Positions 468 through 22,708 of a stretch of DNA of 23,373 nucleotides are shown here, one piece after another. The notes beneath the pieces were generated by a model that was not told the origin of the DNA, made no database searches, and saw nothing but the letters and a program-made list of their open reading frames with translations. Origin of the DNA: a virus; the IMG/VR virus record IMGVR_UViG_3300017746_000168, positions 1-23,373 of that record. One strand, written 5' to 3'. Each line of letters starts with the position of its first letter. Position 1 is the first letter of the stretch. The translations under genes were made by a program, and so were the position numbers.

Positions 468-469
468 TA

Positions 470-2829: not shown

Positions 2830-2836
2830 TTAAGAC

Positions 2837-8799: not shown

Positions 8800-10331
8800 T
8801 TAGAACCTCTAGCCAAACGATTGCTCCGTTTCATACGCCCAAATGGACTCCCAACTCTTTCTACGGTTGTGGGGGTAGGACGACCTCCTGTGCCTACAAT
8901 CACTCTACGACCTTCACCGCCCCCTAACATTGCATACTGAAGAGCATCATGTATGTGACTAAACCTATTCTTAGAAGCCTTCTCTTCAAATCTCTCGTTA
9001 CCCATATGATAAACGCGCTTATACTGATATCCACCCTCAAATCCTGCAAGTAAAACTGTACATGTAGGGCTTATAAGCAAACTAGGATATCCATCGGATA
9101 GTCTGTTAACAACAGATTCAACTGCTTCTATTCTTAGACTGGCATCATTAGATGGTGCTGGCCTAGCATCAATTCCATTTGCTCTCATAATCATAAATGG
9201 AGTTTGCTCACTGGTTTGTGCCATCTGATTACCAGCCGGATCACCTATGAATTTAAAGCTGTGCTTATCCCATCCGTTTCTAGCAATGTCTCTTTTAAGT
9301 ATTTCTGCGAATCTTCCGGCTCCCATGTCTTGCCCGATAAGCTCATGGAATACTGTCCATCTTCCTGAGTGTATTTGTTGACAAAAGATTGCCGACGGTG
9401 TGCGGCCAAAGTCAATGCCAACGATAACTTCCTTGCCGTCTTGCGGTTCGAGCGGTGACGCTGAAACATGAGTTTCCTTTCTAAATGTCGGATATACAGG
9501 CTTACCATCCATAATAGTCTGGTATTCATTAATAACATAAACCTTAACCCAACTTGGGGCTTTACCCAGAATGATCTTATCATAGTAATCAGACTTTAGA
9601 TTCTTACGATTCTCTGAGTGCATATTAGGCTCGTAACCTATAAACTTTCCACTCTCATCCTTCTTCTCAGTCATCGCTCCAGGCTGTGAGTAGAATGTCC
9701 AATCATCAGGCTTGATCATCAAAAGCTTTTCGTCTTCTGGCATGAACTCAGGAACGGGAACTTCTCCGGCCATGATACCCCACCAGTGTGTTTCATCAGG
9801 AGCGTTAGTGTCCATAATGACACCAGCCCAACTAGCACCACCATCTTTCATACTTGGAAATCTGCCAACACGCATAGTACACGCATCAACAATACTCTTC
9901 GGTATTTCCCTAGCCTCATTAATCCAAACGCCAGTTAACTCAAGAGATAGTAGCTTCTTTATGTCTTCCTGTTTATCAAGAGCAAGAAAGATAACCTCTA
10001 ACTCAACAGCAGTCTTATCAGGCAAAGATATGTTTACATTGTGAGTATAAGGTGGCGACCAGACAAACTTCCCCATTTCATCAGAGAACCAATCACGCCA
10101 TGTCTTAATTGTAGTAGTCTTTAGCTGTGGATTTGTATTTCTGATAACAGCCCATCTTGATCTGCGAACACCTGACTGATTAGGCTCTTGCTTAATCGCC
10201 CTACGCATAATCTCCATGCAACAAGTAACTGACTTGCCGGAACCAACAGGACCTCTTATGCCACGCACAAAAGACTCGTCTTTCATAAATGACTTAGCCA
10301 CCTCTCCCGGAGGCTTGTAGTCTATGTTCAT
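8793..10331 (-). CDS. terL: Terminase large subunit
   Basis: The product has 512 residues and packages DNA into the procapsid through the portal. The N-terminal ATPase has Walker A GPVGSGKS at residues 27-34, with a Walker B-like strand and catalytic glutamate in LTGVWINEARE at about 132-142 (Glu139). The C-terminal RNase H-like nuclease shows the three expected acidic sites: Asp307 in VIVGIDFGRT, Asp364 in KFIGDPAGN, and Asp462 in HIHDALQYAM. All key residues are present and the length is normal. The ATG at 10331 overlaps the stop of the Gly/Ser-rich gene upstream (ATGA). No strong ribosome binding site is visible, so translation is probably coupled. Confidence 0.93.
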   Translation of the reverse strand: MNIDYKPPGEVAKSFMKDESFVRGIRGPVGSGKSVTCCMEIMRRAIKQEPNQSGVRRSRWAVIRNTNPQLKTTTIKTWRDWFSDEMGKFVWSPPYTHNVNISLPDKTAVELEVIFLALDKQEDIKKLLSLELTGVWINEAREIPKSIVDACTMRVGRFPSMKDGGASWAGVIMDTNAPDETHWWGIMAGEVPVPEFMPEDEKLLMIKPDDWTFYSQPGAMTEKKDESGKFIGYEPNMHSENRKNLKSDYYDKIILGKAPSWVKVYVINEYQTIMDGKPVYPTFRKETHVSASPLEPQDGKEVIVGIDFGRTPSAIFCQQIHSGRWTVFHELIGQDMGAGRFAEILKRDIARNGWDKHSFKFIGDPAGNQMAQTSEQTPFMIMRANGIDARPAPSNDASLRIEAVESVVNRLSDGYPSLLISPTCTVLLAGFEGGYQYKRVYHMGNERFEEKASKNRFSHIHDALQYAMLGGGEGRRVIVGTGGRPTPTTVERVGSPFGRMKRSNRLARGSKW

Positions 10332-11563: not shown

Positions 11564-11593
11564 TTGAACACAATCCAGATTATCTACGGAATG

Positions 11594-11622
11594 ATGTTAA
11601 CTACTCCTGTTTTGGCTGTCAA
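11594..11622 (-). promoter_or_regulatory. Sigma70-type promoter of the late operon
   Basis: On the minus strand the -35 box TTGACA is a perfect match to consensus (plus-strand 11617-11622). A 17-base spacer follows, then TAACAT, which matches four of six -10 positions (plus-strand 11594-11599). A start near base 11587 would give a short leader to the small terminase ATG at 11563. The perfect -35 with ideal spacing directly upstream of the first late gene makes this the best promoter candidate in the window. It implies transcription by host RNA polymerase. Confidence 0.65.
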
Positions 11623-11724
11623 GTCACATACTACAAGCCCTTGTACTCATTGACTTTCTCAGGGAGACAAAACCCCCTTCGGCAGTCAATAGCATGAAAC
11701 AGTCCCCCCGGTCGTCGTCCCTAC

Positions 11725-11758
11725 GCGAAGCTCTCTCTTGGCGAGAGAGGCTATTCGC
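11725..11758. other. Two-part imperfect hairpin
   Basis: An inner perfect stem CTCTCTC/GAGAGAG (11731-11737 and 11743-11749) closes a five-base loop. An outer stem GCGAA/TTCGC (11725-11729 and 11754-11758) extends it across an asymmetric bulge. There is no T run after it, so it is not a typical terminator on either strand. It may be a leader RNA structure or a protein recognition site. Confidence 0.55.
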
Positions 11759-11827
11759 TCCGTGACTAGCCCTAGCCCTTTTGCTTTGTTGCGTTGCAGT
11801 TTCATTGCTCTTCGGCCTTACAGCCGA

Positions 11828-11846
11828 TTGTCTTTTCGAAAGACAA
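11828..11846. other. Perfect 8-bp hairpin with 3-base loop
   Basis: TTGTCTTT and AAAGACAA pair perfectly around TCG. The site lies 69 bases right of the two-part hairpin and 13 bases before a third GC-rich hairpin. Its near-palindromic form could act as DNA (protein site) or RNA (stem-loop). Confidence 0.55.
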
Positions 11847-11859
11847 ACAAAGATAATGG

Positions 11860-11877
11860 CGGCCTATCGGCCGTTTT
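11860..11877 (+). terminator. Terminator-like hairpin CGGCC-tatc-GGCCG followed by TTTT
   Basis: A five-base GC stem (11860-11864 with 11869-11873) closes a four-base loop and is followed by TTTT on the plus strand. No plus-strand gene lies upstream, so if it works it would stop transcripts begun in the control region, as an attenuator. The stem and T run are short, so termination strength is uncertain. Confidence 0.35.
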
Positions 11878-12022
11878 CACACACACACAAGTCCCGTTGT
11901 ATCATGCGTATGATGACCCACAAAATACAACCCCCAGTCAATCCCTCCTGCAACTCGTAGTTCTGATTGTCTTGCTCTTTCCGTCTGTGCTTTCTTTCTC
12001 GGTCAACATGAGTCGTTTCGGA

Positions 12023-12035
12023 CCGCCCTTGGCGG
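12023..12035. other. GC-rich short hairpin
   Basis: CCGCC and GGCGG (12023-12027 and 12031-12035) pair around a three-base loop, framed more distantly by AGTC/GACT (12011-12014 and 12045-12048). It lies just upstream of the possible rightward promoter. Confidence 0.4.
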
Positions 12036-12050
12036 CAAGGGGATGACTGT

Positions 12051-12095
12051 TTGTATTTTGGTTGGTCTTTGTAATTTATACACGATCCTGTGTAT
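12051..12095 (+). promoter_or_regulatory. Possible early promoter with overlapping 18-bp inverted repeat
   Basis: TTGTAT (12051-12056) and TTTATA (12075-12080) form a weak -35/-10 pair with an 18-base spacer. The -10 box overlaps a perfect inverted repeat ATACAC-gatcct-GTGTAT (12078-12095), placed where a repressor would block transcription. The first early gene starts at 12124. The hexamers are degenerate, so the promoter is tentative; the repeat itself is plain. Confidence 0.35.
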
Positions 12096-12123
12096 GTGTG
12101 GATTATATCAAATGGAGGTTTAC

Positions 12124-12300
12124 ATGATCGATCCTAAACTACTTACAGAAATTCAGTTCCCTATTACATTACCAGAAGTTCAAGTTACTGAGCTTGATGA
12201 GATATGGTCACATTGGGAAGTACGACAGGCGTTAGAGTCTGGAGATATTGATCGTGCCGCTGAGCTTGCTGAGATGGCACATACTCAACAATGGAGCTAG
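12124..12300 (+). CDS. Hypothetical 58-residue acidic protein, first early gene
   Basis: The start is the ATG at 12124, with GGAGG seven bases upstream; a longer frame to 12043 is open but has no start signal. The protein begins MIDPKLLTEIQFPITLP, is acidic overall, and ends with a helical repeat-like segment (ALESGDIDRAAELAEMAHTQQWS). No domain is recognised. As the first gene after the control region it may be a host-takeover or regulatory factor, but only position suggests that. A hairpin follows it at 12312-12338. Confidence 0.68.
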   Translation: MIDPKLLTEIQFPITLPEVQVTELDEIWSHWEVRQALESGDIDRAAELAEMAHTQQWS

Positions 12301-12311
12301 TAAGCAAATCA

Positions 12312-12338
12312 GATGGGGGTGTATCAAGCATCCCCATC
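12312..12338 (+). other. Intercistronic hairpin GATGGGG/CCCCATC
   Basis: A perfect seven-base stem (12312-12318 with 12332-12338) closes a 13-base loop between the first two early genes and lies just before the ribosome binding site of the second. No T run follows, so it more likely affects mRNA stability or processing than termination. Confidence 0.5.
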
Positions 12339-12359
12339 ATTATCGTAAGGAGAATCATT

Positions 12360-12959
12360 ATGACTTATACTATGGATGACTTAACACCAGAGATTCTGGA
12401 TCGTATCGCAACCAGCATTCGTAAGGATGCACTACCCAAGCCAGACTACATGGAAGCTTGGACAGAGGAGTTTGCCAAGCGTGTACAGGCACTTATCGAC
12501 ATGTTCGATGAGAGCTATGAGATCGTAACCAAGGCAAAGCTTGCCGACCAGATGACGCAGATGTTTGAGCGTATCGCTACTAATCTCAAGACATCAGGTA
12601 CTCGTAAGCGTTGGGAGCTTCGTGATGCCAAGCGTGGTCATCAGGGTATTGAGATTACGCAACTTGAGATCGACAAGCTAGAGGATCAGCTTGAGTCTAT
12701 GCGTAGTCAGTACTACATGATCATGCACGCCTTTCGCACTATGCGCTACAATGTCAGACCTAAGGTTATCTCGGACTCAGGTCTTAACTGGGGATCGTAT
12801 ACTCCCATTGCCGAGCTACCCAGAGTTCGCCGTCAGCGTTATGCTCGTAACAACCTGACCATTCAGGACTACATGAATGATGACGAACAGTTCTGGCGTA
12901 ACGCTCGTGAAGCTGGACTTGCAGAAGTTCCACAGGAGGATCAAGAGTCCTTCGCTTAA
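12360..12959 (+). CDS. Hypothetical 199-residue helical protein, early region
   Basis: The start is the ATG at 12360, with AAGGAG seven bases upstream; the longer open frame from 12291 lacks a site. The product begins MTYTMDDLTPEILDRIATSIRK and is helical and highly charged. A likely coiled coil lies around residues 85-125 (RHQG-like turn, then QLEIDKLEDQLESMRSQYY). The C-terminal third has basic patches (LPRVRRQRYARNN) and an acidic end. Codons favour C/G endings and CGT for arginine, unlike the AT-ending codons of most early genes, which suggests high expression or different ancestry. A terminator follows directly. No family is recognised; nucleic-acid binding is possible from the basic patches. 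Confidence 0.72.
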   Translation: MTYTMDDLTPEILDRIATSIRKDALPKPDYMEAWTEEFAKRVQALIDMFDESYEIVTKAKLADQMTQMFERIATNLKTSGTRKRWELRDAKRGHQGIEITQLEIDKLEDQLESMRSQYYMIMHAFRTMRYNVRPKVISDSGLNWGSYTPIAELPRVRRQRYARNNLTIQDYMNDDEQFWRNAREAGLAEVPQEDQESFA

Positions 12960-12968
12960 CACTCACTC

Positions 12969-13003
12969 GCTGAGAGGGCTAGTCCCTCTCGGCACTATTT
13001 TTT
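12969..13003 (+). terminator. Rho-independent terminator after the 199-residue gene
   Basis: GAGAGGG (12972-12978) pairs with CCCTCTC (12984-12990) around CTAGT. The stem is extended by a wobble and two further pairs, and TTTTTT follows at 12998-13003. It lies nine bases after the stop codon, so it should end or reduce transcription from the first early genes. Confidence 0.75.
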
Positions 13004-13008
13004 GTGCT

Positions 13009-13028
13009 GGTGAACACCGGGGTTCATC
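13009..13028 (+). other. Hairpin before the 26-residue peptide gene
   Basis: GGTGAAC (13009-13015) pairs with GTTCATC (13022-13028), with one G-U pair, around ACCGGG. It sits directly after the terminator and 20 bases before the next start codon, so it may shield or expose the ribosome binding site (CGGAG). Confidence 0.42.
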
Positions 13029-13047
13029 GCCTCAAACGGAGATTGTT

Positions 13048-13128
13048 ATGTTTAATCTAGTAAAGTTTTTTACTGTATTCACATTAATTACCATTTACAC
13101 ATTCATCTTGTTTGCTTATTATATATAG
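13048..13128 (+). CDS. 26-residue single-pass membrane peptide
   Basis: The ATG at 13048 has CGGAGA upstream with usable spacing; the frame ends at 13126-13128. After MFNLVKF the peptide is almost entirely hydrophobic (FTVFTLITIYTFILFAYYI), enough for one membrane helix. It is followed by a separate ribosome binding site for another membrane protein. The DNA is very AT-rich compared with the flanking genes. Small phage membrane peptides can alter host envelope functions or exclude other phages, but nothing here shows which. The small size keeps confidence moderate. Confidence 0.5.
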   Translation: MFNLVKFFTVFTLITIYTFILFAYYI

Positions 13129-13167
13129 CAACAAGCAAATAATTAATAATTAAATCAGGAGGTTACA

Positions 13168-13497
13168 ATGGCATTTTTTGTTCTAGCTGGTGTTTTTTCA
13201 GCACTAGCCATACTCTTTCTTTTGTTCAAATTAGATATAAAGAAAGTTTTAGCATTTGATTTTTTCGTTGATATTTCATCTTCATTACTGCTTACCGTAC
13301 TTTTCTTCGGTACTTTTGCAGGTATGATGGCGGCTGTCATCGGTGGTGCATTGATATCAATGGTCTTGTATTTCACCAAGCGGATCATTGGTTACAAAAA
13401 GCCAACATTTAAAAAGTACAAGTTTGTGTGGGAGGATGTTCCCCCTCACAGAAAACATACCAGTACCAGACATGTATGGTCGCAATCTGGTAGATGA
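13168..13497 (+). CDS. Small integral membrane protein, unknown function
   Basis: The product has 109 residues, with AGGAGG seven bases before the ATG. One membrane helix covers residues 2-20 (AFFVLAGVFSALAILFLLF). A long hydrophobic stretch at 38-70 (SLLLTVLFFGTFAGMMAAVIGG onward) could form one or two more. The C-terminal tail (71-109) is basic, with His and Trp near the end, and is probably cytoplasmic. It lies between a membrane peptide gene and SSB. No family is recognised. A host-envelope or superinfection-exclusion role is possible but is not shown by sequence. Confidence 0.68.
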   Translation: MAFFVLAGVFSALAILFLLFKLDIKKVLAFDFFVDISSSLLLTVLFFGTFAGMMAAVIGGALISMVLYFTKRIIGYKKPTFKKYKFVWEDVPPHRKHTSTRHVWSQSGR

Positions 13498-13516
13498 GGC
13501 TAGACGTGACGCCTCA
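13495..13516 (+). other. Intercistronic hairpin TGAGGC/GCCTCA upstream of SSB
   Basis: A perfect six-base stem (13495-13500 with 13511-13516) closes a ten-base loop and begins at the stop codon of the membrane protein gene. No T run follows. It may mark an mRNA processing or stability boundary before the SSB gene. Confidence 0.42.
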
Positions 13517-13551
13517 ACAACTCAACCATAGCTAACGCAAGGAGAATCGCT

Positions 13552-13959
13552 ATGAATATCGCACAAATCACAGTATCAGGTAACGTAGGTTCAGACCCAG
13601 AGGTTCGTGATGTTAACGGCACTAAAGTCGCTAACTTCTCAATCGCTGTCAACGAGAAGTACCGCACCAAGTCAGGCGAACAGGTAGAGAACACTCACTG
13701 GTTTCGCATTGAGGCTTGGGACGGCTCTAACGGTAAGGGTCTTGTATCCAATGTTATTGAACCGCTTGTCAAGAAGGGTACTACAGTGTACGCTCAAGGT
13801 ACTCCTATCATTGAAGAGTATGAGAAAGATGGTATCAAACAACGTGCATTTAAAGTCAAGCTTGCAGGATCAGGTTCAACCTTCCGTCTTGCATCACGCA
13901 GTGACGATGCACCGTCTGGTTCATCTGCCCCATCATCTTCAGAAGATGTTCCTTTCTAG
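13552..13959 (+). CDS. ssb: Single-stranded DNA-binding protein
   Basis: The product has 135 residues, with the bacterial-type OB fold. It starts MNIAQITVSGNVGSDPEVR, continues with VANFSIAVNEKYR and HWFRIEAWDG, and has VKKGTTVYAQGTP as the late strand; a Ser-rich linker follows. The last residues are SSEDVPF, the acidic tip with terminal Pro-Phe that recruits host replication and repair proteins in bacterial SSBs. It therefore both coats single-stranded DNA and could bring host enzymes to phage DNA. The ribosome binding site (AAGGAG) lies in a context almost identical to that of the 199-residue gene. Codon use is also more C/G-ending than in its neighbours. Hairpins flank the gene on both sides. 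Confidence 0.93.
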   Translation: MNIAQITVSGNVGSDPEVRDVNGTKVANFSIAVNEKYRTKSGEQVENTHWFRIEAWDGSNGKGLVSNVIEPLVKKGTTVYAQGTPIIEEYEKDGIKQRAFKVKLAGSGSTFRLASRSDDAPSGSSAPSSSEDVPF

Positions 13960-13990
13960 ACCCTCTATTTAGAACCTCCCTGTAGAGGGT
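13960..13990 (+). other. Hairpin ACCCTCTA/TAGAGGGT after SSB
   Basis: A perfect eight-base stem (13960-13967 with 13983-13990) closes a 15-base loop and starts right after the SSB stop codon. It precedes a stronger terminator hairpin by six bases and could protect the SSB mRNA 3' end or assist termination. Confidence 0.55.
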
Positions 13991-13996
13991 TAAACT

Positions 13997-14030
13997 GGGG
14001 TGTGATTTTTCGGATTCACACCCCTTTTTT
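13997..14030 (+). terminator. Rho-independent terminator after SSB
   Basis: GGGGTGTGA (13997-14005) pairs with TCACACCCC (14016-14024) in a perfect nine-base stem with a ten-base loop. TTTTTT follows at 14025-14030. This is the strongest terminator in the window and it ends the SSB transcript. The next gene starts 14 bases later with its own ribosome binding site, so later genes need read-through or their own promoter. Confidence 0.88.
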
Positions 14031-14043
14031 ATTGGAGACAACC

Positions 14044-14397
14044 ATGAAAGCATTTATCATTGATCCATTCAGAGAAACTATCACCATGATAGATTACAGT
14101 GGAGACTGGCACGACATTAAAACTCACATTGAATGCAGTATGTTCACAGTAGTTAGAGTAGATGAAGGGGATATATTTTTAGATGACGAAGGACTTTACA
14201 GCAAAGGCTCTGAACAAATGTTCTTCCTCCATAAAGATTATCCATCGCCTCTTGCTGGCTACGGCCTTGTCCTTGACACAGATGAAGAGGGCGAAGCTAT
14301 TGAAGCCAGCACATCTATTGAGGAACTAAGCAAATCAATTACTTGGTTAGGAGGACCTTATGAAGCAATGGCCTACGCAAAGAAACACAATCTCTAA
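14044..14397 (+). CDS. Hypothetical 117-residue protein, MKAFIIDPF-type
   Basis: The start is the ATG at 14044, with TGGAGA nearby; the longer open frame from 14002 would begin inside the terminator. The product begins MKAFIIDPFRETITMIDY and contains GDIFLDDEGLYSKGSEQMF, PLAGYGLVLDTDEEGE and a C-terminal helix. I recall similar MKAFxIDPF..TI proteins in marine phage early regions, but none with a known role. The DDEG and DTDEEGE segments are acidic, and the fold looks alpha/beta and soluble. Confidence 0.7.
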   Translation: MKAFIIDPFRETITMIDYSGDWHDIKTHIECSMFTVVRVDEGDIFLDDEGLYSKGSEQMFFLHKDYPSPLAGYGLVLDTDEEGEAIEASTSIEELSKSITWLGGPYEAMAYAKKHNL

Positions 14398-14411
14398 ACA
14401 GGAGACTGCAA

Positions 14412-14636
14412 ATGAATATATATCAACGTATGACCCACATGATGGGCATAAAGACAAAAGCCTCATGGATTGGCTGGTTTGTCACTGTTCACCTAATACT
14501 CACGTTGTCTATCACACTTATGATGATAGTCATTGGCCTCAACCCAACACTAATGATGTCGGTTATCAGCGCACCAATATGGATTTGTACAGTCCTCGCA
14601 AGCAAATATGTTACCGATAGAATCATGGAGGATTAA
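14412..14636 (+). CDS. Small two-helix membrane protein
   Basis: The product has 74 residues, with AGGAGA eight bases before the ATG at 14412. Two hydrophobic helices at residues 18-43 and 48-65 are separated by a short turn around IGLNPT. The N-terminus is basic, and the C-terminus ends in an acidic DRIMED. Its stop codon is followed at once by the next ATG (14637). A second open frame on the same strand (14360-14620) overlaps it but lacks a ribosome binding site and a plausible composition. The function is unknown. Confidence 0.65.
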   Translation: MNIYQRMTHMMGIKTKASWIGWFVTVHLILTLSITLMMIVIGLNPTLMMSVISAPIWICTVLASKYVTDRIMED

Positions 14637-14831
14637 ATGCTTAATCTAAAGAAACAAGAATATGTCTTTACTATAGAGACAATCAATAAATACTACATCA
14701 CTGTAGAATCAACTACAGAAGACTCTGCCATTGAAGAAGCTGAGAGACAAATCCTTGACGAACAAGGACAACTAGACAGTATTCATGTAGAACACGTCAT
14801 CCTAGAGGAGATAAATGATGTCTATGCATAG
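14637..14831 (+). CDS. Hypothetical 64-residue acidic protein
   Basis: The ATG directly follows the stop of the membrane protein gene, with GGAGG within the upstream coding end. The product has a beta-alpha-beta look: EYVFTIETINKYYITVES, then a helix SAIEEAERQILDEQG, then a strand SIHVEHVILEEI. This layout is seen in many small phage proteins of unknown role. The 3' end overlaps the next start. No function is assigned. Confidence 0.66.
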   Translation: MLNLKKQEYVFTIETINKYYITVESTTEDSAIEEAERQILDEQGQLDSIHVEHVILEEINDVYA

Positions 14832-15081
14832 TCCATATGTGTCAGGTCACTTGACATTTGATGTATCAAAAGCAACTATAGAGCCACAGGATGATGGGTA
14901 TGTCTATATCAGACTGTATCAACCTACAGGTAGAAGCTTTCACCCTCACAGAGTTTGCCTAAACATTGCCTTAACTGACAATGATGGCAAGGTTCGTGAG
15001 ATGTTTAATGGCCTCGAAATTAACGAAGAAACAATTTTAGTGGAGTACATAGACGATGCTATCACAGATTCCCCTGAGTGA
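14818..15081 (+). CDS. Hypothetical 87-residue protein
   Basis: Two ATGs lie in tandem at 14815 and 14818. The second is preferred because GGAG (14807-14810) is then seven bases away, like other genes here. The product begins MSMHSPYVSGHLTFDV, is beta-rich (YVYIRLYQPTGRSFHPHRV), and ends acidic (EYIDDAITDSPE). It overlaps the gene before by 14 bases and the ParB-domain gene after it by 26 bases, so the three are translated as a unit. No domain is recognised. Confidence 0.65.
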   Translation: MSMHSPYVSGHLTFDVSKATIEPQDDGYVYIRLYQPTGRSFHPHRVCLNIALTDNDGKVREMFNGLEINEETILVEYIDDAITDSPE

Positions 15082-16690
15082 ACTTAAGTTTGATCTTAAC
15101 AATGTTCGCAAGGTATCAACAGACAAAATTGCGTATCAGCAACTAGAGGCTTCCATAGCCTCAAAAGGTCTTCTTCACAATCTGGTCGTTACCAAAAATG
15201 GTAATGGCTATATTGTGATTGACGGCAATCGAAGACTAGAAGCACTCAAAGCTTTAGCAAATGACACCTTTCCAGTACCATGCTTTGTAGTAGACAGCTA
15301 CGACAGAGAACTTGGCTTACATGCCAACATGATGCGTGAAGCTATGCACCCTTTAGATGAGTGTGATGTTATTGCTGGCATAGCCTCAACAGGTGCTGAT
15401 GACTATGATGGTATTGCCAAACGCTTTGGTCAGACAACTAAATGGGTTATGCAACGACTTGCTCTTGCGGATTTGTCAGAAACGGCTAAAGAACAGTTCC
15501 GTCAAAACAAGTTTGGAATGGCTGTTGCATCTGCTCTCTGCATTGGCAGTCACGAACAACAAGATCAATTCCTCGATATGTATGAAGAAAGCACATACAT
15601 AAATGCAAACCAAGCTACACACATGATGACAAAGAACAAAGCAAAAACAACTGATTTGCTTTTTGACATCGACTCTTTATCTGAACATGAATTGTCTCAA
15701 CTAAATATTGAATCAGACTTGTTCAGTGATGTTTCATATATAACAAACATGAATCATTTCAATAGTTTACAGTATGAGTACATAAGCCAACAAAAGTCTG
15801 AATACCAAAAAGTCTATGAAGATGTAGAAGTTTATTTTGACAAAATGGATTTTGAGATACCAAGCCTTAGAATGTTCAAAAAGATATATGATGTAGAACA
15901 AACTGAGTTCAACAAAGCTAACGCCATTATGGTTATTACATATGATAGAGAACGCTTTCGTTACAACGAGTCAGTTTTTCAACGCTATGAGGTAGAGGAG
16001 ATTAACGACCAAGCCTCTGACGAAAACGGTGAAGTCGTTGAAGATAATATAACACCTCTTAATATGAGCAATGCTCAAGAACAGCAAGTTCATGGTTACT
16101 TTGCAGACTTCATAAGACGTGAAATGTTTCAAACGCCTATGCTTAACTTTAGATTGTGCAAAGCATTAGTTGCACACAGAGTCCTACATTTGGGCTTTGA
16201 GTGGGCTAACCGTGTTGGCAATGTAATTGTGGAAAGCAAACTTAACTCTGATTACAAAAGGGATGAACAACCCGATGACTACACTGACCCTAATTTTGAG
16301 AAATTTATTGACGATCATAAACTCGCTCTTGACACTTGGAGACATGATAATGACGGTACAGCGGTTCACTATTGTCTTACTCTCGAAGATGAAGTACTTG
16401 ATAAACTCTTTGTCGCGGCTGTTATCCGCACTATTGACAAGACAGACATCCAAAGGGATGACTGCAAAACACTCTTCAACACAGATGAATATGCTAACAT
16501 GGAGTGGTTCAGACCAGACGCAACATGGCTCAACAAATACAAAGTAGAGCAGATAGATATGCTGTCACAAGAGTTTATTGGCGGCACGTTTGGTACTAAC
16601 AAAAAAGAGAAGATCAATAAGCTTCTAGAGTTTAAAGACCTTCTTGCTAAGTTCAATCCCTATGGTTCATGGCCTCAAAAGTCTGAGTAA
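15056..16690 (+). CDS. ParB/RepB-domain DNA-binding protein with long C-terminal extension
   Basis: The product has 544 residues. Residues 1-95 form the ParB N-terminal domain: IPLSELKFDLNNVRK, the strand GNGYIVIDGNRRLEALK with the conserved D-G-N-R-R box at 56-60, and NMMREAMHPLDE. Residues 117-142 give a KorB/ParB-like helix-turn-helix (DYDGIAKRFGQTTKWVMQRL). The remaining 380 residues match no domain I know and are acidic and helical. ParB-family proteins bind specific DNA and use CTP or act as nucleases. In phages they serve as partition factors, regulators or nucleases, and which applies here is open. No ParA neighbour and no classical parS palindrome is visible. The gene meets the RuvC-like gene tail to tail with a 16-base overlap. 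Confidence 0.82.
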   Translation: MLSQIPLSELKFDLNNVRKVSTDKIAYQQLEASIASKGLLHNLVVTKNGNGYIVIDGNRRLEALKALANDTFPVPCFVVDSYDRELGLHANMMREAMHPLDECDVIAGIASTGADDYDGIAKRFGQTTKWVMQRLALADLSETAKEQFRQNKFGMAVASALCIGSHEQQDQFLDMYEESTYINANQATHMMTKNKAKTTDLLFDIDSLSEHELSQLNIESDLFSDVSYITNMNHFNSLQYEYISQQKSEYQKVYEDVEVYFDKMDFEIPSLRMFKKIYDVEQTEFNKANAIMVITYDRERFRYNESVFQRYEVEEINDQASDENGEVVEDNITPLNMSNAQEQQVHGYFADFIRREMFQTPMLNFRLCKALVAHRVLHLGFEWANRVGNVIVESKLNSDYKRDEQPDDYTDPNFEKFIDDHKLALDTWRHDNDGTAVHYCLTLEDEVLDKLFVAAVIRTIDKTDIQRDDCKTLFNTDEYANMEWFRPDATWLNKYKVEQIDMLSQEFIGGTFGTNKKEKINKLLEFKDLLAKFNPYGSWPQKSE

Positions 16691-17151
16691 AAGTGATGAC
16701 CCCAATAGGCAATCATTGCTGATTCAGCAAGACCATCATGAGATTTAAGCGGCCAGTATTCTTCATTGCCAAATATACTGGTTGCTTTCTCTCTTGCCTC
16801 TTGCTTGTCAGCAGAAACGCCTAAATCTTTCTTCCAGTCTTTTGGTCTAACTTCATCGTAAGAAAAACCAAGGGCTATAAAAGTACCTATGCAGATACCA
16901 TACTGGAAACCAATACTAAAAGTAGAAACAACTCCTTGCCTTGGCATAGCCTGTTGCTTTTCTACTACAATTCTATTTGGGTTTTCATCTAACAATATAT
17001 TGCAAAACCTATGGCAATTAAGAAACTGCCTCTTTTTCTTTGCAATAGTTTTAGTGACGACAGGCATCTTATATACTTTGAGATATCCTGCATCTTTATC
17101 AAAAAATGCTATGCCACCTTTTAATCCGGGGTCAATACCGCATATCAACAT
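16675..17151 (-). CDS. RuvC-like Holliday junction resolvase
   Basis: The product has 158 residues, close to RuvC length. The RNase H-like fold is shown by GIDPGLKGG at residues 5-13 (Asp7), IVVEKQQAMPRQG at 61-73 (Glu64), and the C-terminal SHDGLAESAMIAYWG at 137-151 (Asp139, with Glu143 nearby). These are the acidic residues that bind metal and cut junctions. VRPKDWKKDLG is also typical of phage RuvC-like enzymes. It would resolve branched DNA made by the exonuclease/annealase pair and clear it before packaging. The ribosome binding site GGAGG is seven bases upstream, within the end of the repressor gene, which it overlaps by 20 bases. Confidence 0.85.
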   Translation of the reverse strand: MLICGIDPGLKGGIAFFDKDAGYLKVYKMPVVTKTIAKKKRQFLNCHRFCNILLDENPNRIVVEKQQAMPRQGVVSTFSIGFQYGICIGTFIALGFSYDEVRPKDWKKDLGVSADKQEAREKATSIFGNEEYWPLKSHDGLAESAMIAYWGHHFYSDF

Positions 17152-17362
17152 CTTTAGCCTCCAATTTAATGTCGCATCCTAAGGCTTCTGCCCAACAATA
17201 CGCATTAAACAATGTTGGCTTACGATTACCAATTTCCCATTTAGCAACGAGTCCCGGAGCAACGCCAATCTTCAAGTCAATATCCATTTGGGTAAAACCA
17301 AGAGAGTACCTACGTCTTTGAAATTGCTTAATTAATTCTTCAGTAAAAGCTTTTTCAGTCAT
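17132..17362 (-). CDS. XRE-family helix-turn-helix repressor
   Basis: The start was set at the ATG at 17362, which has GAAGGAG six bases upstream; a longer frame to 17458 crosses the operator and the divergent gene. The product has 76 residues: MTEKAFTEELIKQFQRRRYS, then the helix-turn-helix FTQMDIDLKIGVAPGLVAKWEIGNRKPTLFNAYCWAEALG (about residues 23-62). This is a minimal Cro/CI-type DNA-binding domain without a cleavage domain, so control would be by level or partner. It is divergent to the recombination operon and separated from it by a 32-bp palindrome, which suggests autorepression and control of that operon. The resolvase gene follows in the same transcript. Confidence 0.85.
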   Translation of the reverse strand: MTEKAFTEELIKQFQRRRYSLGFTQMDIDLKIGVAPGLVAKWEIGNRKPTLFNAYCWAEALGCDIKLEAKDVDMRY

Positions 17363-17372
17363 GCAAATCTCC

Positions 17373-17404
17373 TTCACATAAGCAAACAATACTGCTAATG
17401 TGAA
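17373..17404. promoter_or_regulatory. 32-bp palindromic operator between repressor and recombination operon
   Basis: TTCACATAAGCA (17373-17384) and TGCTAATGTGAA (17393-17404) are inverted repeats with a single mismatch in 12 and an eight-base spacer. The palindrome lies in the 72-base gap between the divergent repressor start (17362) and the plus-strand gene at 17435. Each half also holds TTCACA with a TGC-preceded TAATGT or TTATGT 17 bases away, so weak face-to-face promoters may lie in the palindrome itself. It is the obvious binding site for a dimeric XRE repressor. Confidence 0.75.
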
Positions 17405-17434
17405 TTGAACACAACATAAAAAAGGAGGGCCAAA

Positions 17435-17680
17435 ATGGCTAATCTCAGCAAAAAACATTTTGAGTGGCTATCAACCGATATAGCTGGAATGATTACGCCT
17501 CATATGCGTAGACAGTTTGTAGATTCTATCATTAACTTCAATGACAATCCTCAATTTATCAGGTTCAAGTTTGAAAACAAAATGATGGAAACTATTGTTG
17601 ATCAGATAGCTGACGATCAAGCAAACGAAATCAGTCCAGAACTTTACAAAATTCAAGATATGGGATGGAGAAAGACATGA
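17435..17680 (+). CDS. Hypothetical 81-residue protein, first gene of recombination operon
   Basis: AAAGGAGGG lies six bases before the ATG, the best ribosome binding site in the window. The product begins MANLSKKHFEWLSTDIAGMI and is helical, with FNDNPQFIRFKFENKMME and a C-terminal QDMGWRKT. It has no recognised domain. As first gene next to the operator it would be made with the exonuclease and annealase. Proteins of this size and N-terminus (KKHFEWLA..I) occur beside SSB and recombination genes in marine phages, but their role is unknown. Confidence 0.7.
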   Translation: MANLSKKHFEWLSTDIAGMITPHMRRQFVDSIINFNDNPQFIRFKFENKMMETIVDQIADDQANEISPELYKIQDMGWRKT

Positions 17681-17904
17681 GCAAATACACTGGAACTACA
17701 TCGGCTGTTGACAAAAACTATCGCAGTAAATTTATGGTTAATTTTCATGTGGAGTTTTTAAAGTCATTGCCTGTTGCGGCACTCAATAAAGAGGAAGCCG
17801 AAGAAATTGCTAAGCAAAGAATACTTCAAAAGCAGAAAGGCATGCTCCTAAGTGGATACCATTTAGGCGACATAGAACTTATCAGCGTAGAGGATAGAAA
17901 GTAA
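17677..17904 (+). CDS. Hypothetical 75-residue protein
   Basis: The start is set at the ATG at 17677, overlapping the stop of the previous gene (ATGA) with GGAGA upstream; an in-frame ATG at 17665 is too close to that site. The product begins MSKYTGTTSAVDKNYRSKF and has a helical middle (NKEEAEEIAKQRILQKQKG) and a beta end (YHLGDIELISVEDRK). Its stop overlaps the exonuclease start. No domain is recognised. Confidence 0.66.
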   Translation: MSKYTGTTSAVDKNYRSKFMVNFHVEFLKSLPVAALNKEEAEEIAKQRILQKQKGMLLSGYHLGDIELISVEDRK

Positions 17905-18764
17905 TGCTTACAGAATCACAACTTGCAGAACGCAAAACCTATATTGGCTCATCAGATGCAAAGTCAATAGCATCTGGAGATATTGTGCAATGGGAAAACA
18001 CTGCCGCTATCAAACGTGGTGACAAGGAGTTCAAAGTATCTAAGGATGTCCAGCTAAAGATGGACACTGGTTCTTACATGGAATCCTTTGTTATTGACAA
18101 ATGGCAAGAGATGTCTGGCATCACAACTAACATGCGTGGTGCTGGTCGTACACAGCTATTTGGGGACGTTCCCCTTCACAGCACATATGACGCTATGATT
18201 GTTGGGAGTAAAATTCCTGTTGAGGTCAAGTGTCACTTTGGCTTCATGGATATGGACGATCTAATTGAACTTTATTCGCCTCAGATTCAGCATCACATGC
18301 TCGTATCAGGTAGCGAATCAACAATGTTTGTAGTATTTCACGGACTCAGATGCACCATAAAGTGGCGTAAGGTTATCAAAGACAATGACTGGTGCAGTAT
18401 GTATCTCTTACAAGCAAAAAAGTTTTGGGATTTTTACCAAGGCAATGGTGTAGATGATTCTATCTATACACTGCCACCAATCGTCTATGACGACATGTAT
18501 ACTATGGACTTGCGTGAACATGATGACTTCAGTCCTGACTTTGAGTCATCTCTCAATTTGTCTGTAGAAAACATGATTGACTACAAAGGTGCTGAACACA
18601 TGAACACAGAATCTAAGAATATGTTCAAAGAATGGCTACCTCCCAAATGCAGAAAGATGACATATGCGCTAACCGGGAATCGCAAAGGTTGGTCAGTTGT
18701 TGTTACAAGAAGCAAATCAGGGACTGTTACATGCAGATTAAACACACCAAAGGATGGAGAATAA
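17904..18764 (+). CDS. YqaJ-type phage exonuclease (lambda Exo superfamily)
   Basis: The product has 286 residues. The PD-(D/E)XK nuclease core is clear: YIGSSDAK at 13-20, Glu60 in DTGSYMESFV, STYDAMIV with Asp96, VEVKC with Glu107 and Lys109, and the helix SPQIQHHMLV with Gln127 and Gln129. Such enzymes resect one strand of double-stranded ends so an annealing protein can load. The annealase gene follows two bases after the stop. Start and stop overlap neighbours, which points to tight co-translation. The C-terminal 100 residues match no further known domain. Confidence 0.88.
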   Translation: MLTESQLAERKTYIGSSDAKSIASGDIVQWENTAAIKRGDKEFKVSKDVQLKMDTGSYMESFVIDKWQEMSGITTNMRGAGRTQLFGDVPLHSTYDAMIVGSKIPVEVKCHFGFMDMDDLIELYSPQIQHHMLVSGSESTMFVVFHGLRCTIKWRKVIKDNDWCSMYLLQAKKFWDFYQGNGVDDSIYTLPPIVYDDMYTMDLREHDDFSPDFESSLNLSVENMIDYKGAEHMNTESKNMFKEWLPPKCRKMTYALTGNRKGWSVVVTRSKSGTVTCRLNTPKDGE

Positions 18765-18765
18765 C

Positions 18766-19353
18766 ATGAGTATTTGGAAAACACTTAGCGCAATCGACTG
18801 CTCAGATCACACTGAGAAAAAAGCTGGGATGACATATTTGTCTTGGGCCTGGGCTTGGATGATTGTCAAGCAACATTACCCACAAGCCACATTCACAAAA
18901 TATATATTCGACTATAATGAAATGCAATTACCATACATGCTAGACCCTAACGGTTACGCTTATGTAAAAGTAACTGTAGATATCGATGACGACTCTGCTA
19001 CAGAGATCTATCCTGTGCTTGATCATCGCAACAAAGGCATTCAAAACCCAAACAGCTTCGATGTTAACAAGGCTCATCAACGTTGCCTTGTAAAAGCATT
19101 AGCTTACATGGGTCTTGGCGTAACAATTTATGCTGGTGAAGACTTGCCTCTTTCAGAGATTGAAGATAAAAAGGAACAAGATAATGATGAAGAATCTAGA
19201 ATACTCCAAGAGTTTTTGGGCGCAACATCCTCAGATGAACTTGATGATTGCTGGCGTATCAACAGCCAACGCATCGGCAAGCTCGGTCAAAAAGCGAAAG
19301 ATAGACTTACTGATGGCTTCAAGAAAAAGAAAGTCCAAATCAGAGCCGCCTAA
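18766..19353 (+). CDS. DUF1071 / Sak-type single-strand annealing protein
   Basis: The start is taken at the ATG at 18766 with GGAG eight bases upstream (a nearer ATG at 18754 sits inside the preceding gene). The product has 195 residues with the family pattern SIWKTLSAIDCSDHTEKK, MTYLSWAWAWMIVKQHYPQA, then NKGIQNPNSFDVNKAHQRCLVKALAYMGLGVTIYAGEDLP. The MTYLSW and KAHQRCLVKALA segments are hallmarks of DUF1071 annealing proteins, which are Rad52-like. With the YqaJ exonuclease this forms a two-component recombination system. The C-terminus is acidic and charged (EDKKEQDNDEESRIL) and may contact SSB or the exonuclease. Confidence 0.85.
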   Translation: MSIWKTLSAIDCSDHTEKKAGMTYLSWAWAWMIVKQHYPQATFTKYIFDYNEMQLPYMLDPNGYAYVKVTVDIDDDSATEIYPVLDHRNKGIQNPNSFDVNKAHQRCLVKALAYMGLGVTIYAGEDLPLSEIEDKKEQDNDEESRILQEFLGATSSDELDDCWRINSQRIGKLGQKAKDRLTDGFKKKKVQIRAA

Positions 19354-19513
19354 AGAAATCATTAAGGAAAGGTGTGTGTCTTGCGGCACATACCTATCTT
19401 GCCGCAATGAACCTTTTGTCATCTACTTTAATAATAACTTAAAGTGTATCAAGTGTTATGAATCTAATGCTAATGTACGCTTCAAACCTGACGCAAAGTT
19501 GTTTAAAACATGA
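19313..19513 (+). CDS. 66-residue zinc-ribbon-like protein
   Basis: The frame opens at the ATG at 19313, inside the 3' end of the annealase gene, and its stop overlaps the next ATG (ATGA at 19510-19513). After a basic N-terminus (MASRKRKSKSEPPK) come CVSC (21-24), Cys30 and CIKC (45-48). Two CxxC pairs 20 residues apart suggest a zinc ribbon. The tail is basic. It may bind nucleic acid. The ribosome binding site is weak, so expression probably depends on translation of the annealase gene. A longer frame upstream exists but overlaps most of the annealase. Confidence 0.6.
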   Translation: MASRKRKSKSEPPKEIIKERCVSCGTYLSCRNEPFVIYFNNNLKCIKCYESNANVRFKPDAKLFKT

Positions 19514-19881
19514 CACCAATTCAATCTTTGTTGCATGACAAACGTATACACAAGATACTTTGCAATCACGCACAAATCTTTCTTAATGAAGCAAATCAAT
19601 CTAACGACTGCTTAATGTTGTCTGGTAGTGGTATCAAGACTGACAAGCGATCCTTGTTTATGCACATATCCAAAATGTCATTTGAAGAGATTGCAATATC
19701 TATTACTATCACAGATAACGATAACAATGGCTCAACTTGCTATATGACAATATCTACATTCAACACCCTAGATGATGCAGAATCAGTTATACTTAGGTTT
19801 TGTTTGCTTATGATAGATAGAATATTAGATGGTCACGGTGCGCCAATACAAGTATTTGAAAGCAATCATTATGTCACATGA
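19510..19881 (+). CDS. Hypothetical 123-residue protein
   Basis: The ATG at 19510 overlaps the upstream stop, with no separate ribosome binding site, so translation is coupled. The product begins MTPIQSLLHDKRIHKILCNHAQ and has a helix, then beta strands (FEEIAISITITDNDNN, GSTCYMTISTFN), then a helix with RFCLLMIDRILDG. This looks like a compact alpha/beta domain, but I do not recognise it. Its end overlaps the next gene by 11 bases. Confidence 0.62.
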   Translation: MTPIQSLLHDKRIHKILCNHAQIFLNEANQSNDCLMLSGSGIKTDKRSLFMHISKMSFEEIAISITITDNDNNGSTCYMTISTFNTLDDAESVILRFCLLMIDRILDGHGAPIQVFESNHYVT

Positions 19882-20179
19882 TGAAGCAATATTAATATCA
19901 GAATACGAAGCAAGAAAAAGGTTTGAAGACTGGATAGATGATGGTGAGCTAATAGACGTAACAGGCATTCTCTTTGAGCCAAGCAGAATAATGAGAGAAC
20001 TAGAGCCACTATCCTATCAAATAGGTTTCTTACAATTCATTGATGGCCTCAAAAAGAGTAACATACTTGTTGAAGGTCACACCTACGATGAATCAGACGA
20101 ATATGATGTTCCCATTAAAAAACACAAGTCAGGCTTTATAATCTATGACTTTACAGAAAAAGAAAACGGAGAGAAATAA
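19871..20179 (+). CDS. Hypothetical 102-residue protein
   Basis: The start was placed at the ATG at 19871, giving a short overlap with the previous gene; the open frame from 19829 would overlap it by 53 bases. The product begins MSHDEAILISEYEARKRFEDW and is acidic, with FEPSRIMRELEPLSYQIGFLQFIDGLKK and a C-terminal segment YDESDEYDVPIKKHKSG. It may be soluble and mixed alpha/beta. No domain is recognised, and no clear ribosome binding site is visible. Confidence 0.6.
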   Translation: MSHDEAILISEYEARKRFEDWIDDGELIDVTGILFEPSRIMRELEPLSYQIGFLQFIDGLKKSNILVEGHTYDESDEYDVPIKKHKSGFIIYDFTEKENGEK

Positions 20180-20201
20180 TCCTCCCCGTCTTCCCCCCAC
20201 A

Positions 20202-20219
20202 ACCGCAGAAATGAGCGGT
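20202..20219 (+). other. Hairpin ACCGC/GCGGT before the DUF6378 gene
   Basis: A perfect five-base stem (20202-20206 with 20215-20219) closes an eight-base loop in the 63-bp gap between two early genes. It follows a C-rich, T/C tract (20181-20199). No T run follows, so a role in mRNA processing is more likely than termination. Confidence 0.35.
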
Positions 20220-20242
20220 GTTACCTATTATAGGAGATATCT

Positions 20243-20590
20243 ATGCTTAAGTACAGAGAAGAATTTTGCAGTAGTCTTTTTGAAACTCTAAATGAAAGAC
20301 AGCAAAGTTATGGTGATCCCAGTGAAAGCATGAAACACATAGCTGATATGTGGTCTTCGTATCACGAAAGACGCATAACACCACAGGAAATGGTTTCAAT
20401 GATGATTATGTTAAAGCTTGGAAGGCTAAAGGAAACTCCTTGTCATCTTGACTCATGGCTAGACATAGCTGGATATGCGGCTATTGCATATGAATCTATT
20501 CTTTGCGAGATTGAAGATGAAGAAGCCATTGATGACCCATCTTCGGACATGGAAAGCATTGATGACGAAGAAATGGATCATGACTTCTAG
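20243..20590 (+). CDS. DUF6378 family protein with acidic antisense-overlapping tail
   Basis: The product has 115 residues, with AGGAG seven bases before the ATG. Residues 1-84 match the pattern I know for DUF6378: RQQSYGDPSESMKHIADMW, then ITPQEMVSMMIMLKLGRLKE, then DSWLDIAGYAAIAYE. The function of this family is not established; the helical pattern resembles small nucleotide-metabolism proteins. Residues 85-115 are an acidic tail with a ten-residue tandem repeat (EAIDDPSSDM, ESIDDEEMDH). This tail is exactly the part that overlaps the metallophosphoesterase gene on the other strand. It is the last early gene. Confidence 0.75.
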   Translation: MLKYREEFCSSLFETLNERQQSYGDPSESMKHIADMWSSYHERRITPQEMVSMMIMLKLGRLKETPCHLDSWLDIAGYAAIAYESILCEIEDEEAIDDPSSDMESIDDEEMDHDF

Positions 20591-21518
20591 GATCAATAAC
20601 TTGCATAATTGATTGACCAAAGTTCTGTTGATCAAACCCCTTAACAAACGCATAACTATCATGGTATTTGAAGCCTCTTGCCCTTGCTAACCACATGATC
20701 TTTTTTTGCTCTACCTCTTCCATTTGCGCTAAAGCCCAATTGTGACGATGACCACTAATGTAAAGATCAGAATTGCTTTTAAACTTAGCCATCTTGGTTT
20801 GTGCATGTAGAGCATTCCATTGACTGTGACCCGGCATATCATGTGCGGCATGTATTCTTATGTTTGTTTTGTTAGGAAAGTTAATCTGTATTCTAGCTTC
20901 CCAGTCTTCCATAATAGCTCTGTGACCAGCCATCCATTTTAATGGATCACCAGCACCTGACCACATGTCGTGATTACCAGCAATTAATATCATAGGCTTC
21001 ATGCTATCTATAAGCCATTCAACTAGCTTTAAAGCAGTCTTCTTTGAGTTCTCTTGCTCACCATAAAGACGAGACAATCTGCCTATCCAATTGTTCTGAA
21101 AGTCACCTAAAGAGCAACCAAAGATTCTATCGTTGCTATTAATAATTGATAGGTGTTCTTGAAGTACATCCCAATCACAATAATTATCATCAATGTGAGG
21201 ATCGCCAAGCCAAAGCAGAGCAAAAGGCTCATCAGATTCCATATTAACTTGTAACCATTTTTTAGATTCCTTGTGCTTCTTACGCTTCTGGAATCTCTTG
21301 TGGAGCATATCCACGATTTCTTCAACGTCAACATCATCATCCTCCTGTGTGGGTAGGGAGTATGGTTTATCCTCAGATTTCATTAACAATTGATGTTCGT
21401 ATGCTTTCAGTCTGTTATGCAAAGTACTTTTAGGTATGCCTATAGCATCAGATGCTTCACGAACAGTACCATAAGTTTGAACAGCTTCGTAAGCTTCTAA
21501 GTTCTTATCATTAATCAT
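20496..21518 (-). CDS. HTH-metallophosphoesterase fusion
   Basis: The product has 340 residues. Residues 8-40 form a helix-turn-helix (YEAVQTYGTVREASDAIGIPKSTLHNRLK), then an acidic linker (DDDVDVEEIVD). From about residue 98 comes a calcineurin-like phosphoesterase with GDPHID (Asp106, His108), SLGDFQNN (Asp139), GNHD (181-184), HAAHD (about 223-227) and GHRH (256-259), the full metal-binding set. The C-terminus SIMQVIDPRSHDPF and QCF..PKMG fits the usual end of this family, so the part overlapping the early gene looks genuine. It may cleave nucleic acid or nucleotides while bound to DNA. It overlaps the endolysin gene by eight bases, so it is expressed with lysis genes. Confidence 0.82.
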   Translation of the reverse strand: MINDKNLEAYEAVQTYGTVREASDAIGIPKSTLHNRLKAYEHQLLMKSEDKPYSLPTQEDDDVDVEEIVDMLHKRFQKRKKHKESKKWLQVNMESDEPFALLWLGDPHIDDNYCDWDVLQEHLSIINSNDRIFGCSLGDFQNNWIGRLSRLYGEQENSKKTALKLVEWLIDSMKPMILIAGNHDMWSGAGDPLKWMAGHRAIMEDWEARIQINFPNKTNIRIHAAHDMPGHSQWNALHAQTKMAKFKSNSDLYISGHRHNWALAQMEEVEQKKIMWLARARGFKYHDSYAFVKGFDQQNFGQSIMQVIDPRSHDPFLRHQCFPCPKMGHQWLLHLQSRKE

Positions 21519-21921
21519 TGCAATCCAACATCATGTTTTTTAATTCAACGCCTCTAGTTTTTATCTGATTGTACCAAAGAGAATCTTCCATCTCTAAAGC
21601 CGCTCTAGAATAGTCTCTGTCTTCTAGTGCAGATCGAAACTTTTTAAACTGTGAGAATCGAGGCCAACCAAGGTTGAATACCATAGAAGCTAATACTATC
21701 TGAGCTTGGTGAGGCAAATCTCTCCACCATTCCATACGATCATCTAGCTCTTGTACAGCTACACTTACATCATCTTTTAGTATTTGCTTAGCGGCTGTTT
21801 CGCTTATAGGTGTTTGTAAGTTATGACCATATCCAATAGTTGGCACACCCACTGTATCCATATACATGTCAAGCCTCAAGCCTTCATGCTTTGCTATAAT
21901 GTCAGTTAGTTCATCAATCAT
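21511..21921 (-). CDS. Endolysin, T4-type lysozyme (GH24)
   Basis: The product has 136 residues. Catalytic residues follow the T4 lysozyme spacing: Glu13 in AKHEGLRL, Asp22 in YMDTVG and Thr28 in PTIGYGHN. The C-terminal lobe includes VLASMVFNLGWPRFSQFKKF, typical of GH24. There is no signal peptide, so it needs a holin, and a holin-like gene lies just upstream with a four-base overlap. It would cut the glycan strands of host peptidoglycan at lysis. Confidence 0.92.
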   Translation of the reverse strand: MIDELTDIIAKHEGLRLDMYMDTVGVPTIGYGHNLQTPISETAAKQILKDDVSVAVQELDDRMEWWRDLPHQAQIVLASMVFNLGWPRFSQFKKFRSALEDRDYSRAALEMEDSLWYNQIKTRGVELKNMMLDCND

Positions 21922-22277
21922 TTTTTACCCTTTACGCTATCAATAACGCCACCGCCAAAATAAAATCCAAGTATAATTAACATAGCATAGTTGATGCTAA
22001 ACTGCTCCATCACCTTAGTCACTGCGTCAGGATCGCCATAACCTGAGATAGTCATGCCAAGAACAATCAAGTAACTACCAAGAAATGTGCCTCCAAACAT
22101 CAAGGCCAAATATCTTTGTGCAATCTTGAATGATGCGTACGCTCCCATCAAATCAATCTTGGCCTTACTCTTAGCCGCAATCTCTTCTTCAGTGCTGGTA
22201 TGCATGTCATCGATAAGGCTCAAGCCTTTCTTGATTACATCACCGCCCCCAAGGATAGAATTTAGAACGCCCATCAT
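21918..22277 (-). CDS. Putative holin (3TM/GTA-type)
   Basis: The product has 119 residues, with AAGGAG seven bases before the ATG at 22277 (a tandem ATG). The N-terminus holds a charged helix (STEEEIAAKSKAKIDLMG), then AQRYLALMFGGTFLGSYLIVLG (about residues 53-74) and a second hydrophobic helix FSINYAMLIILGFYFGGGVI (about 93-112), with a basic end. The pattern AQRYLALM.GG fits the GTA-type holin family found in marine phages. It would make the membrane holes that release the endolysin. The gene overlaps the endolysin start by four bases. Confidence 0.75.
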   Translation of the reverse strand: MMGVLNSILGGGDVIKKGLSLIDDMHTSTEEEIAAKSKAKIDLMGAYASFKIAQRYLALMFGGTFLGSYLIVLGMTISGYGDPDAVTKVMEQFSINYAMLIILGFYFGGGVIDSVKGKK

Positions 22278-22279
22278 AG

Positions 22280-22708
22280 CTAACTCCTTAAATAATAAGC
22301 AACTGTACCAGCAATGCCGACCATAATAAGGACCGCCATTGCACCTACGAACATTTCTAATATGAATTGTTTGCGTCTTCTAGCTTTCTTCTGTGCTTCA
22401 CGTCTCTCTGTGCGACACTTAGCTTGAAAAGCTTGCCAGTCAGACCACAGCCTTGGCCTGCCAGTATATATCATGATTTGTTTGAGTTGATACTCAGATT
22501 CCTTAACTTGCTCTAATGCAAGAAAAGCTTGTAGGTCTGAGCCGCCAACAGATGACTTGCTCTTGCCAGCAACTTTCTTTTCCAAGTCTTCTTTAGCACC
22601 GACAAATTTCGCAATAGCAGTCCCTGCCCTAGCCAAATCACCAGAGTTCGTCACTGCTTGCTTTATAACAGCAAATGCGGCATTGGCGGCGGCTAATTCG
22701 GCTAACAT
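22280..22708 (-). CDS. C-terminally anchored protein next to lysis genes
   Basis: The product has 142 residues and begins MLAELAAANAAFAVIKQAVTNSG, an Ala-rich helix. The middle is charged and helical (EDLEKKVAGKSKSS; ALEQVKESEYQLKQIMIYTG). A basic patch (residues 98-113, CRTERREAQKKARRRK) precedes a single membrane helix at 116-140. This is a cytoplasmic protein tethered by its C-terminus. I have seen similar proteins near lysis genes in marine podoviruses, without a known role. It could aid lysis or sit in the virion. It starts at the stop of the next gene (TGATG). Confidence 0.65.
   Translation of the reverse strand: MLAELAAANAAFAVIKQAVTNSGDLARAGTAIAKFVGAKEDLEKKVAGKSKSSVGGSDLQAFLALEQVKESEYQLKQIMIYTGRPRLWSDWQAFQAKCRTERREAQKKARRRKQFILEMFVGAMAVLIMVGIAGTVAYYLRS

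Follow-up and report, generated by a model that had tools for sequence, protein, structure and literature searches.

How does a short-tailed phage copy and transcribe its DNA when no polymerase, primase or helicase can be recognised among its genes? The question was raised by a stretch of 23,373 bases, the entire IMG/VR record IMGVR_UViG_3300017746_000168 (G000; hereafter the window), which is classed as linear and incomplete. A first-pass annotation, made from the letters alone, had described T7-type particle genes beside a plus-strand early region without DNA or RNA polymerase, and proposed a short-tailed lineage that leaves replication and transcription to the host and keeps recombination. 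This is also the best reading of the present analysis, with a terminator checkpoint and a ParB-type organiser added, and we give the whole a probability of about 75%. The lineage is not unusual as had been supposed, because the Methylophilales phage MEP301 and the HTVC010P-type phages precede it.

The completeness of the early region was examined by extending the record, which is cut off within genes at both ends. Two IMG/VR contigs, both from a single sample differing from that of the window, were joined to it. L094 overlaps positions 1-3199 at 99.7% identity and adds 2720 bases to the left, and L156 overlaps 18420-23373 at 99.5% identity and adds 8145 bases to the right. The ends of L094 and L156 share an exact overlap of 123 bases, of which the stored locus includes 54, the other 69 having been cut from it. 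The composite, drawn from two metagenome samples, is a closed circular map 34,184 bp long. The 10.8 kb beyond the window carry minus-strand late structural genes only (tail, fibre and internal virion). Because the circle closes and the missing part holds only structural genes, the early region is complete within the window, and a second early region outside it was ruled out. The minus-strand blocks at the two edges do join outside the window, as the first-pass annotation had supposed; the circularity that it wished to see checked was found in a map closed with same-species contigs, the window record itself being linear, and the polymerase or primase genes that it feared might lie in the missing part were looked for there without success. 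The same layout was observed in the cultured circular phage Hodr (Pelagibacter phage EXVC031P, OQ414635, 34,238 bp) and, among its relatives, in 13 contigs 30-36 kb long, which are near-complete without a stated completeness and whose breaks sit at differing map points. The window thus covers about two thirds of the circular map of a short-tailed 34-kb phage, on which the plus-strand early block and the minus-strand late block diverge from 11.6-12.0 kb.

The plus-strand early block spans 12.04-20.59 kb. Its features, with the open reading frames (ORFs) given in amino acids (aa) and HTH standing for helix-turn-helix, are the following.

12043-12300, plus: first early ORF, 85 aa, no assigned function; homologues in 3 of 13 relatives
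12342-12362, strand not applicable: 21-bp ribosome-binding-site repeat whose two copies flank a 259-bp gap, from comparison with L002/L003
12360-12959, plus: u222, conserved helical protein, true length 199 aa; alignment of 28
12969-12993, plus: intrinsic terminator directly 3′ of u222; 18 of 28 homologues
13168-13497, plus: u109, small conserved membrane-like protein; 14 of 14 genomes
13552-13959, plus: single-strand DNA-binding protein (SSB); Pfam SSB 5.1e-16, PHROG 2.7e-22
14002-14397, plus: DUF3846-like protein; Pfam 1.4e-6, homologues in relatives
15056-16690, plus: ParB-like protein, 544 aa; Spo0J profile 2.5e-15
16675-17151, minus: RuvC-like Holliday junction resolvase; PHROG 5.1e-29
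17135-17362, minus: stand-alone HTH protein, 76 aa counted from the conserved start; Pfam HTH_3 1.2e-6
17435-17680, plus: u81, small protein, no assigned function; 10 of 14 genomes
17904-18764, plus: YqaJ/RecE-like exonuclease; Pfam 1.1e-5, PHROG 6.9e-17
18754-19353, plus: Sak (DUF1071) single-strand annealing protein; Pfam SSAP_Sak 1.2e-44, PDB 8qe9 2.4e-27
20243-20590, plus: DUF6378 protein, final plus-strand early gene; Pfam 6.1e-24

The Pfam-A and PHROG scans listed matches up to a permissive E of 1, and none of the early ORFs scanned matched a polymerase, primase or helicase, nor a helicase loader. When DNA_pol_A (PF00476) and DnaB_C (PF03796) were searched among 21 records, including L003, L094 and L156 and the 13 near-complete relatives, T7 alone matched; bacterial control genomes were also positive for both. 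RNA_pol (PF00940) was not found in the window's contigs, in a search where the T7 control scored 9.9e-110, nor in 23 related records searched without a T7 control. The variable early ORFs of the relatives showed no replication family except one weak UmuD-like match. In 13 of the 14 genomes the ParB-like protein is the only early ORF longer than 350 aa, and in the remaining one (G010) the contig breaks inside the ParB-like gene. These results indicate that the absence of polymerases is real at the sensitivity of profile searches. A hidden polymerase or primase appears very unlikely, because no conserved early protein except the ParB-like one exceeds 350 aa; a hidden initiator is possible but unproven. 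The early region without DNA or RNA polymerase was thus described correctly from the start, as the family scans and the T7-positive searches agree, and the profile search of the early proteins suggested at that time gave no match to a polymerase, primase, helicase or initiator family in the scanned ORFs.

YqaJ, Sak, SSB and RuvC together are a standard recombination module. They are present in 14 of 14 genomes, as are u109 and the ParB-like protein, with u222 in 13 and the HTH protein in 12; DUF3846 was merged with YqaJ in the clustering and was observed separately in most relatives. The SSB, ParB-domain protein, RuvC, YqaJ and DUF1071 genes first listed for the plus-strand region were all found, except that the RuvC gene lies on the minus strand. 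The window lacks 259 bp present at about 12342-12362 in the same-species contigs L002/L003. With the gap an ORF of about 80 aa is lost, and the following gene, u222, acquires a false N-terminal extension of 23 aa; the gap is either a natural variant or an assembly skip.

The ParB-like protein is the largest conserved early protein and occurs in 13 of 13 relatives. Its residues 5-188 are homologous to Spo0J/ParB/Noc and hold cytidine triphosphate (CTP)-binding motifs together with an HTH, the features by which the ParB CTPase family is recognised in sequence. The motifs GxRR and N..R....P.D/E are invariant across 14 sequences (D56, G57, R59, R60 and A63 in one stretch; N91, R94, P99, D101 and E102 in the other). 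A ParB/Noc/KorB fold was matched by Foldseek, and the nearest viral structures were mostly other phage ParB-like proteins. The C-terminal part of about 350 aa showed no known match among solved structures. No early ORF matched the ParA family in the Pfam/PHROG scans.

For the start of replication, cousins of this phage carry recognisable candidates. Hodr gp31 (L082:15431-15958), annotated as hypothetical, combines an HTH with a DnaT domain that passes the Pfam cut-off, and is likely, from its domains, a replication-initiation adaptor of a cultured pelagiphage; MEP301 gp55 is an O-like protein and initiator candidate. Another HTH-DnaT protein resembling Hodr gp31 was seen on a metagenomic contig (L201:7319-7828). 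Homology (phmmer 6e-9) links the HTH protein of the window to the HTH half of Hodr gp31. The DnaT domain (PF17948) was detected in none of the 14 clade members, with Hodr and E. coli positive, and no window protein gave an O-like PHROG match. Iterons were sought in the early region and only short two-copy repeats were seen. The model of u222 (predicted local distance difference test, pLDDT, 78) gave a best Foldseek E of 0.45 and resembled nothing beyond chance coiled coils, so that an initiator or primase fold was rejected for u222. The cousins have recognisable candidate recruiters of the host replisome and the clade has none, so the clade would recruit it, if at all, via something unrecognised. 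The candidates for initiation are the ParB-like protein, u222 and recombination itself, and our guess is recombination-assisted host replication with a ParB-type organiser.

Signals for transcription were examined as well. A hairpin with a T tract is a signal of bacterial-type RNA polymerase, and 18 of 28 distinct u222 homologues have one immediately downstream, against 0.8 expected from mononucleotide shuffles; the stems are intact in the homologues despite diverged sequence. A terminator follows SSB in 6 of 27 and none follows u109, ParB, YqaJ or Sak. The conserved terminator would fit transcription by the host in which u222, the first conserved early gene, is set apart by a stop from the genes that follow, and an early transcription checkpoint or antitermination site at 12969-12993 is possible. 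Upstream lies a further element:

11564-12042, strand not applicable: long divergent intergenic region of late and early operons, 480 bp, hairpin-rich

Positions 11806-12064 are conserved as noncoding sequence in the relative L005, mostly at 90-100% and at 85% overall, and contain three small hairpins; the late strand of the intergenic region also shows hairpins (z -3.8). The region is a candidate promoter, leader, origin or packaging site.

Taken together, the host-dependent reading would run as follows. Both operons would be transcribed by the host RNA polymerase, and the intrinsic terminator behind u222 may act as a checkpoint. The DNA would be copied by the host DNA polymerase III, DnaB and DnaG, and the exonuclease, annealase, SSB and resolvase would make and process concatemers for packaging via recombination-dependent replication. 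In the most speculative step, the ParB-type protein might bind a site in the phage DNA and aid in organising or starting replication. Several points weigh against this reading. The phage is known here from genes alone, and no host could be named: in contigs of GTDB the single terminase match, 150 aa at 60% identity on the end of a Chitinimonas contig, was uninformative. SSB, exonuclease and annealase occur too in phages with their own polymerase, and an unrecognised initiator or a strongly diverged enzyme could escape profile searches. A parS-like repeated palindrome was sought and none was recurrent. Promoters of the E. coli type are not enriched, and none is conserved after the terminator, so that control by read-through is possible there, as far as can be judged from sequence.

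The alternative with the best claim, though a tentative one, is that the phage has an O/DnaT-type recruiting initiator of its own, which escapes recognition because it has diverged too far or is too short, among u222, u81, the HTH protein or the C-terminal part of the ParB-like protein. Replication would then be lambda/SPP1-like, with a phage initiator loading the host helicase at a phage origin. The domains of Hodr gp31 and MEP301 gp55, the homology between the window HTH protein and half of gp31, and several conserved early genes with no assigned function all speak for it, whereas DnaT went undetected in the clade by a search that was positive in E. coli and Hodr, no initiator family matched any window protein, and the helical u222 has no matching fold. 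An unlikely variant is that a ParB-family CTP-dependent clamp replaces the O/DnaT-type initiators of the cousins, loading at a phage site, perhaps the conserved intergenic element at 11.8-12.06 kb, while its unique C-terminal part draws in the replisome of the host.

A satellite or temperate phage, replicated by a helper or from the chromosome and not by direct use of the host replisome, would also need no polymerase, and ParB-like proteins occur in plasmid-type prophages. This is very improbable given that packaging, capsid, tail and lysis genes are present as a full set; moreover, no integrase or ParA family match was obtained among the scanned early genes, and the terminase match at the contig end was the only one in the genome collection. 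Least credible of all is that the window is artefactual or incomplete and the real genome keeps its polymerases in a second early region. The record is indeed linear and truncated within genes at both ends, but the exact 123-base overlap closes a circle whose gap is filled by structural genes, and 13 relatives repeat the gene set and size, while circular Hodr repeats the layout; this possibility is largely refuted.

The late genes agree with the T7-type particle first described, as portal, scaffold, T7-like head and tail tubular proteins A and B were all found. On the minus strand, the left part of the window holds these together with packaging genes and an internal virion protein, and the right part holds a phosphoesterase, a lysozyme and small genes. 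No Rfam match and no tRNA was obtained.

898-2829, minus: tail tubular protein B; PHROG 1e-127
2837-3463, minus: tail tubular protein A; PHROG 9.2e-32
6575-8152, minus: T7-type portal (head-tail connector); PHROG 3.2e-74
8793-10331, minus: terminase large subunit; PHROG 5.9e-23
20496-21518, minus: metallophosphoesterase/DNA repair exonuclease-like protein with N-terminal HTH; PHROG 7.7e-37
Missing 10.8 kb, minus: 180-aa protein, an ORF in the completing contigs
Missing 10.8 kb, minus: 788-aa lectin/DUF7483 protein, tail or fibre by position
Missing 10.8 kb, minus: 493-aa protein, clusters with tail/fibre proteins
Missing 10.8 kb, minus: 1376-aa protein, lysozyme/ejection cluster
Missing 10.8 kb, minus: 986-aa protein, position like internal virion protein

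A polymerase or helicase concealed in the two largest of these virion proteins was considered and rejected: the 1376-aa protein (1318 residues searched) had no Pfam or PDB match and the 986-aa protein no Pfam match. The phosphoesterase-like gene is present in only 2 of 13 near-complete relatives, yet in many other viral contigs. Near the lysis genes, some relatives carry an endolysin-family gene of another kind (L212:9967-10482), and the lysis set varies within the clade.

Compared with T7 (Autographiviridae), the phage has a detectably homologous portal and scaffold and profile matches to tail tubular A/B, so that it is T7-like in portal and tail; the RNA polymerase, DNA polymerase (DNA_pol_A) and primase-helicase of T7 were not found. 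Its ParB-like protein shares N-terminal CTP-binding motifs and HTH, by profile and fold, with the CTP-dependent DNA clamps ParB, Noc and KorB, but has a C-terminal part of about 350 aa where those have a short dimerisation domain, and neither a ParA partner nor a parS-like site was found. A host-dependent lifestyle without polymerases has already been published for related marine phages and is not new as a kind. HTVC010P-type pelagiphages, such as Polarivirus skadi, are podoviruses without their own RNA or DNA polymerase that rely on the host, with a helicase loader (in Skadi) and two transcription regulators reported (PMC10504331); the likeness to them is drawn from the published description. 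A cyanopodovirus clade without DNA polymerase has also been described (PMC9860041), and MEP301 was published as a phage with no RNA or DNA polymerase that depends highly on its host (PMC8024684).

In portal identity, Hodr is the best isolate (41%), followed by MEP301 (32%) and then Vibrio podoviruses, and in the portal tree the 14 genomes form a tight group (100/99) with Hodr and MEP301 outside. Hodr resembles the window phage in size and divergent layout, in having YqaJ, SSB and a resolvase, and in lacking DNA_pol_A, DnaB_C and RNA_pol matches. It differs in its RusA-like resolvase, where the window has a RuvC-like one, in its HTH-DnaT protein, where the window has the HTH alone, and in having no ParB-like protein of the window's family. 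MEP301 (MW452941, 34.8 kb) likewise has a T7-type portal and tail tubes, YqaJ, an annealase and SSB, and the window phage shows what characterises that kind, a polymerase-free closed podovirus map of about 34 kb with YqaJ, annealase, SSB and resolvase. On the other hand, MEP301 has an Erf annealase, a RusA resolvase, an O-like initiator candidate and no homologue of the ParB family; the early clusters are not common to both, and the Erf, RusA and O-like module of the MEP301 genus is missing here. The closed map and the 13 relatives confirm a common marine podovirus clade that lives without its own polymerases, which surveys of the ocean by polymerase marker genes overlook. The question of how replication starts is narrowed to a handful of genes, foremost that of the ParB-type protein, which occurs throughout the clade in which the initiator domains of the cousins went undetected. 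The analysis adds another uncultured clade whose map is closed, with Sak and RuvC in place of Erf and RusA, a clade-wide ParB-type protein, no detectable DnaT/O-type initiator and a conserved early terminator.

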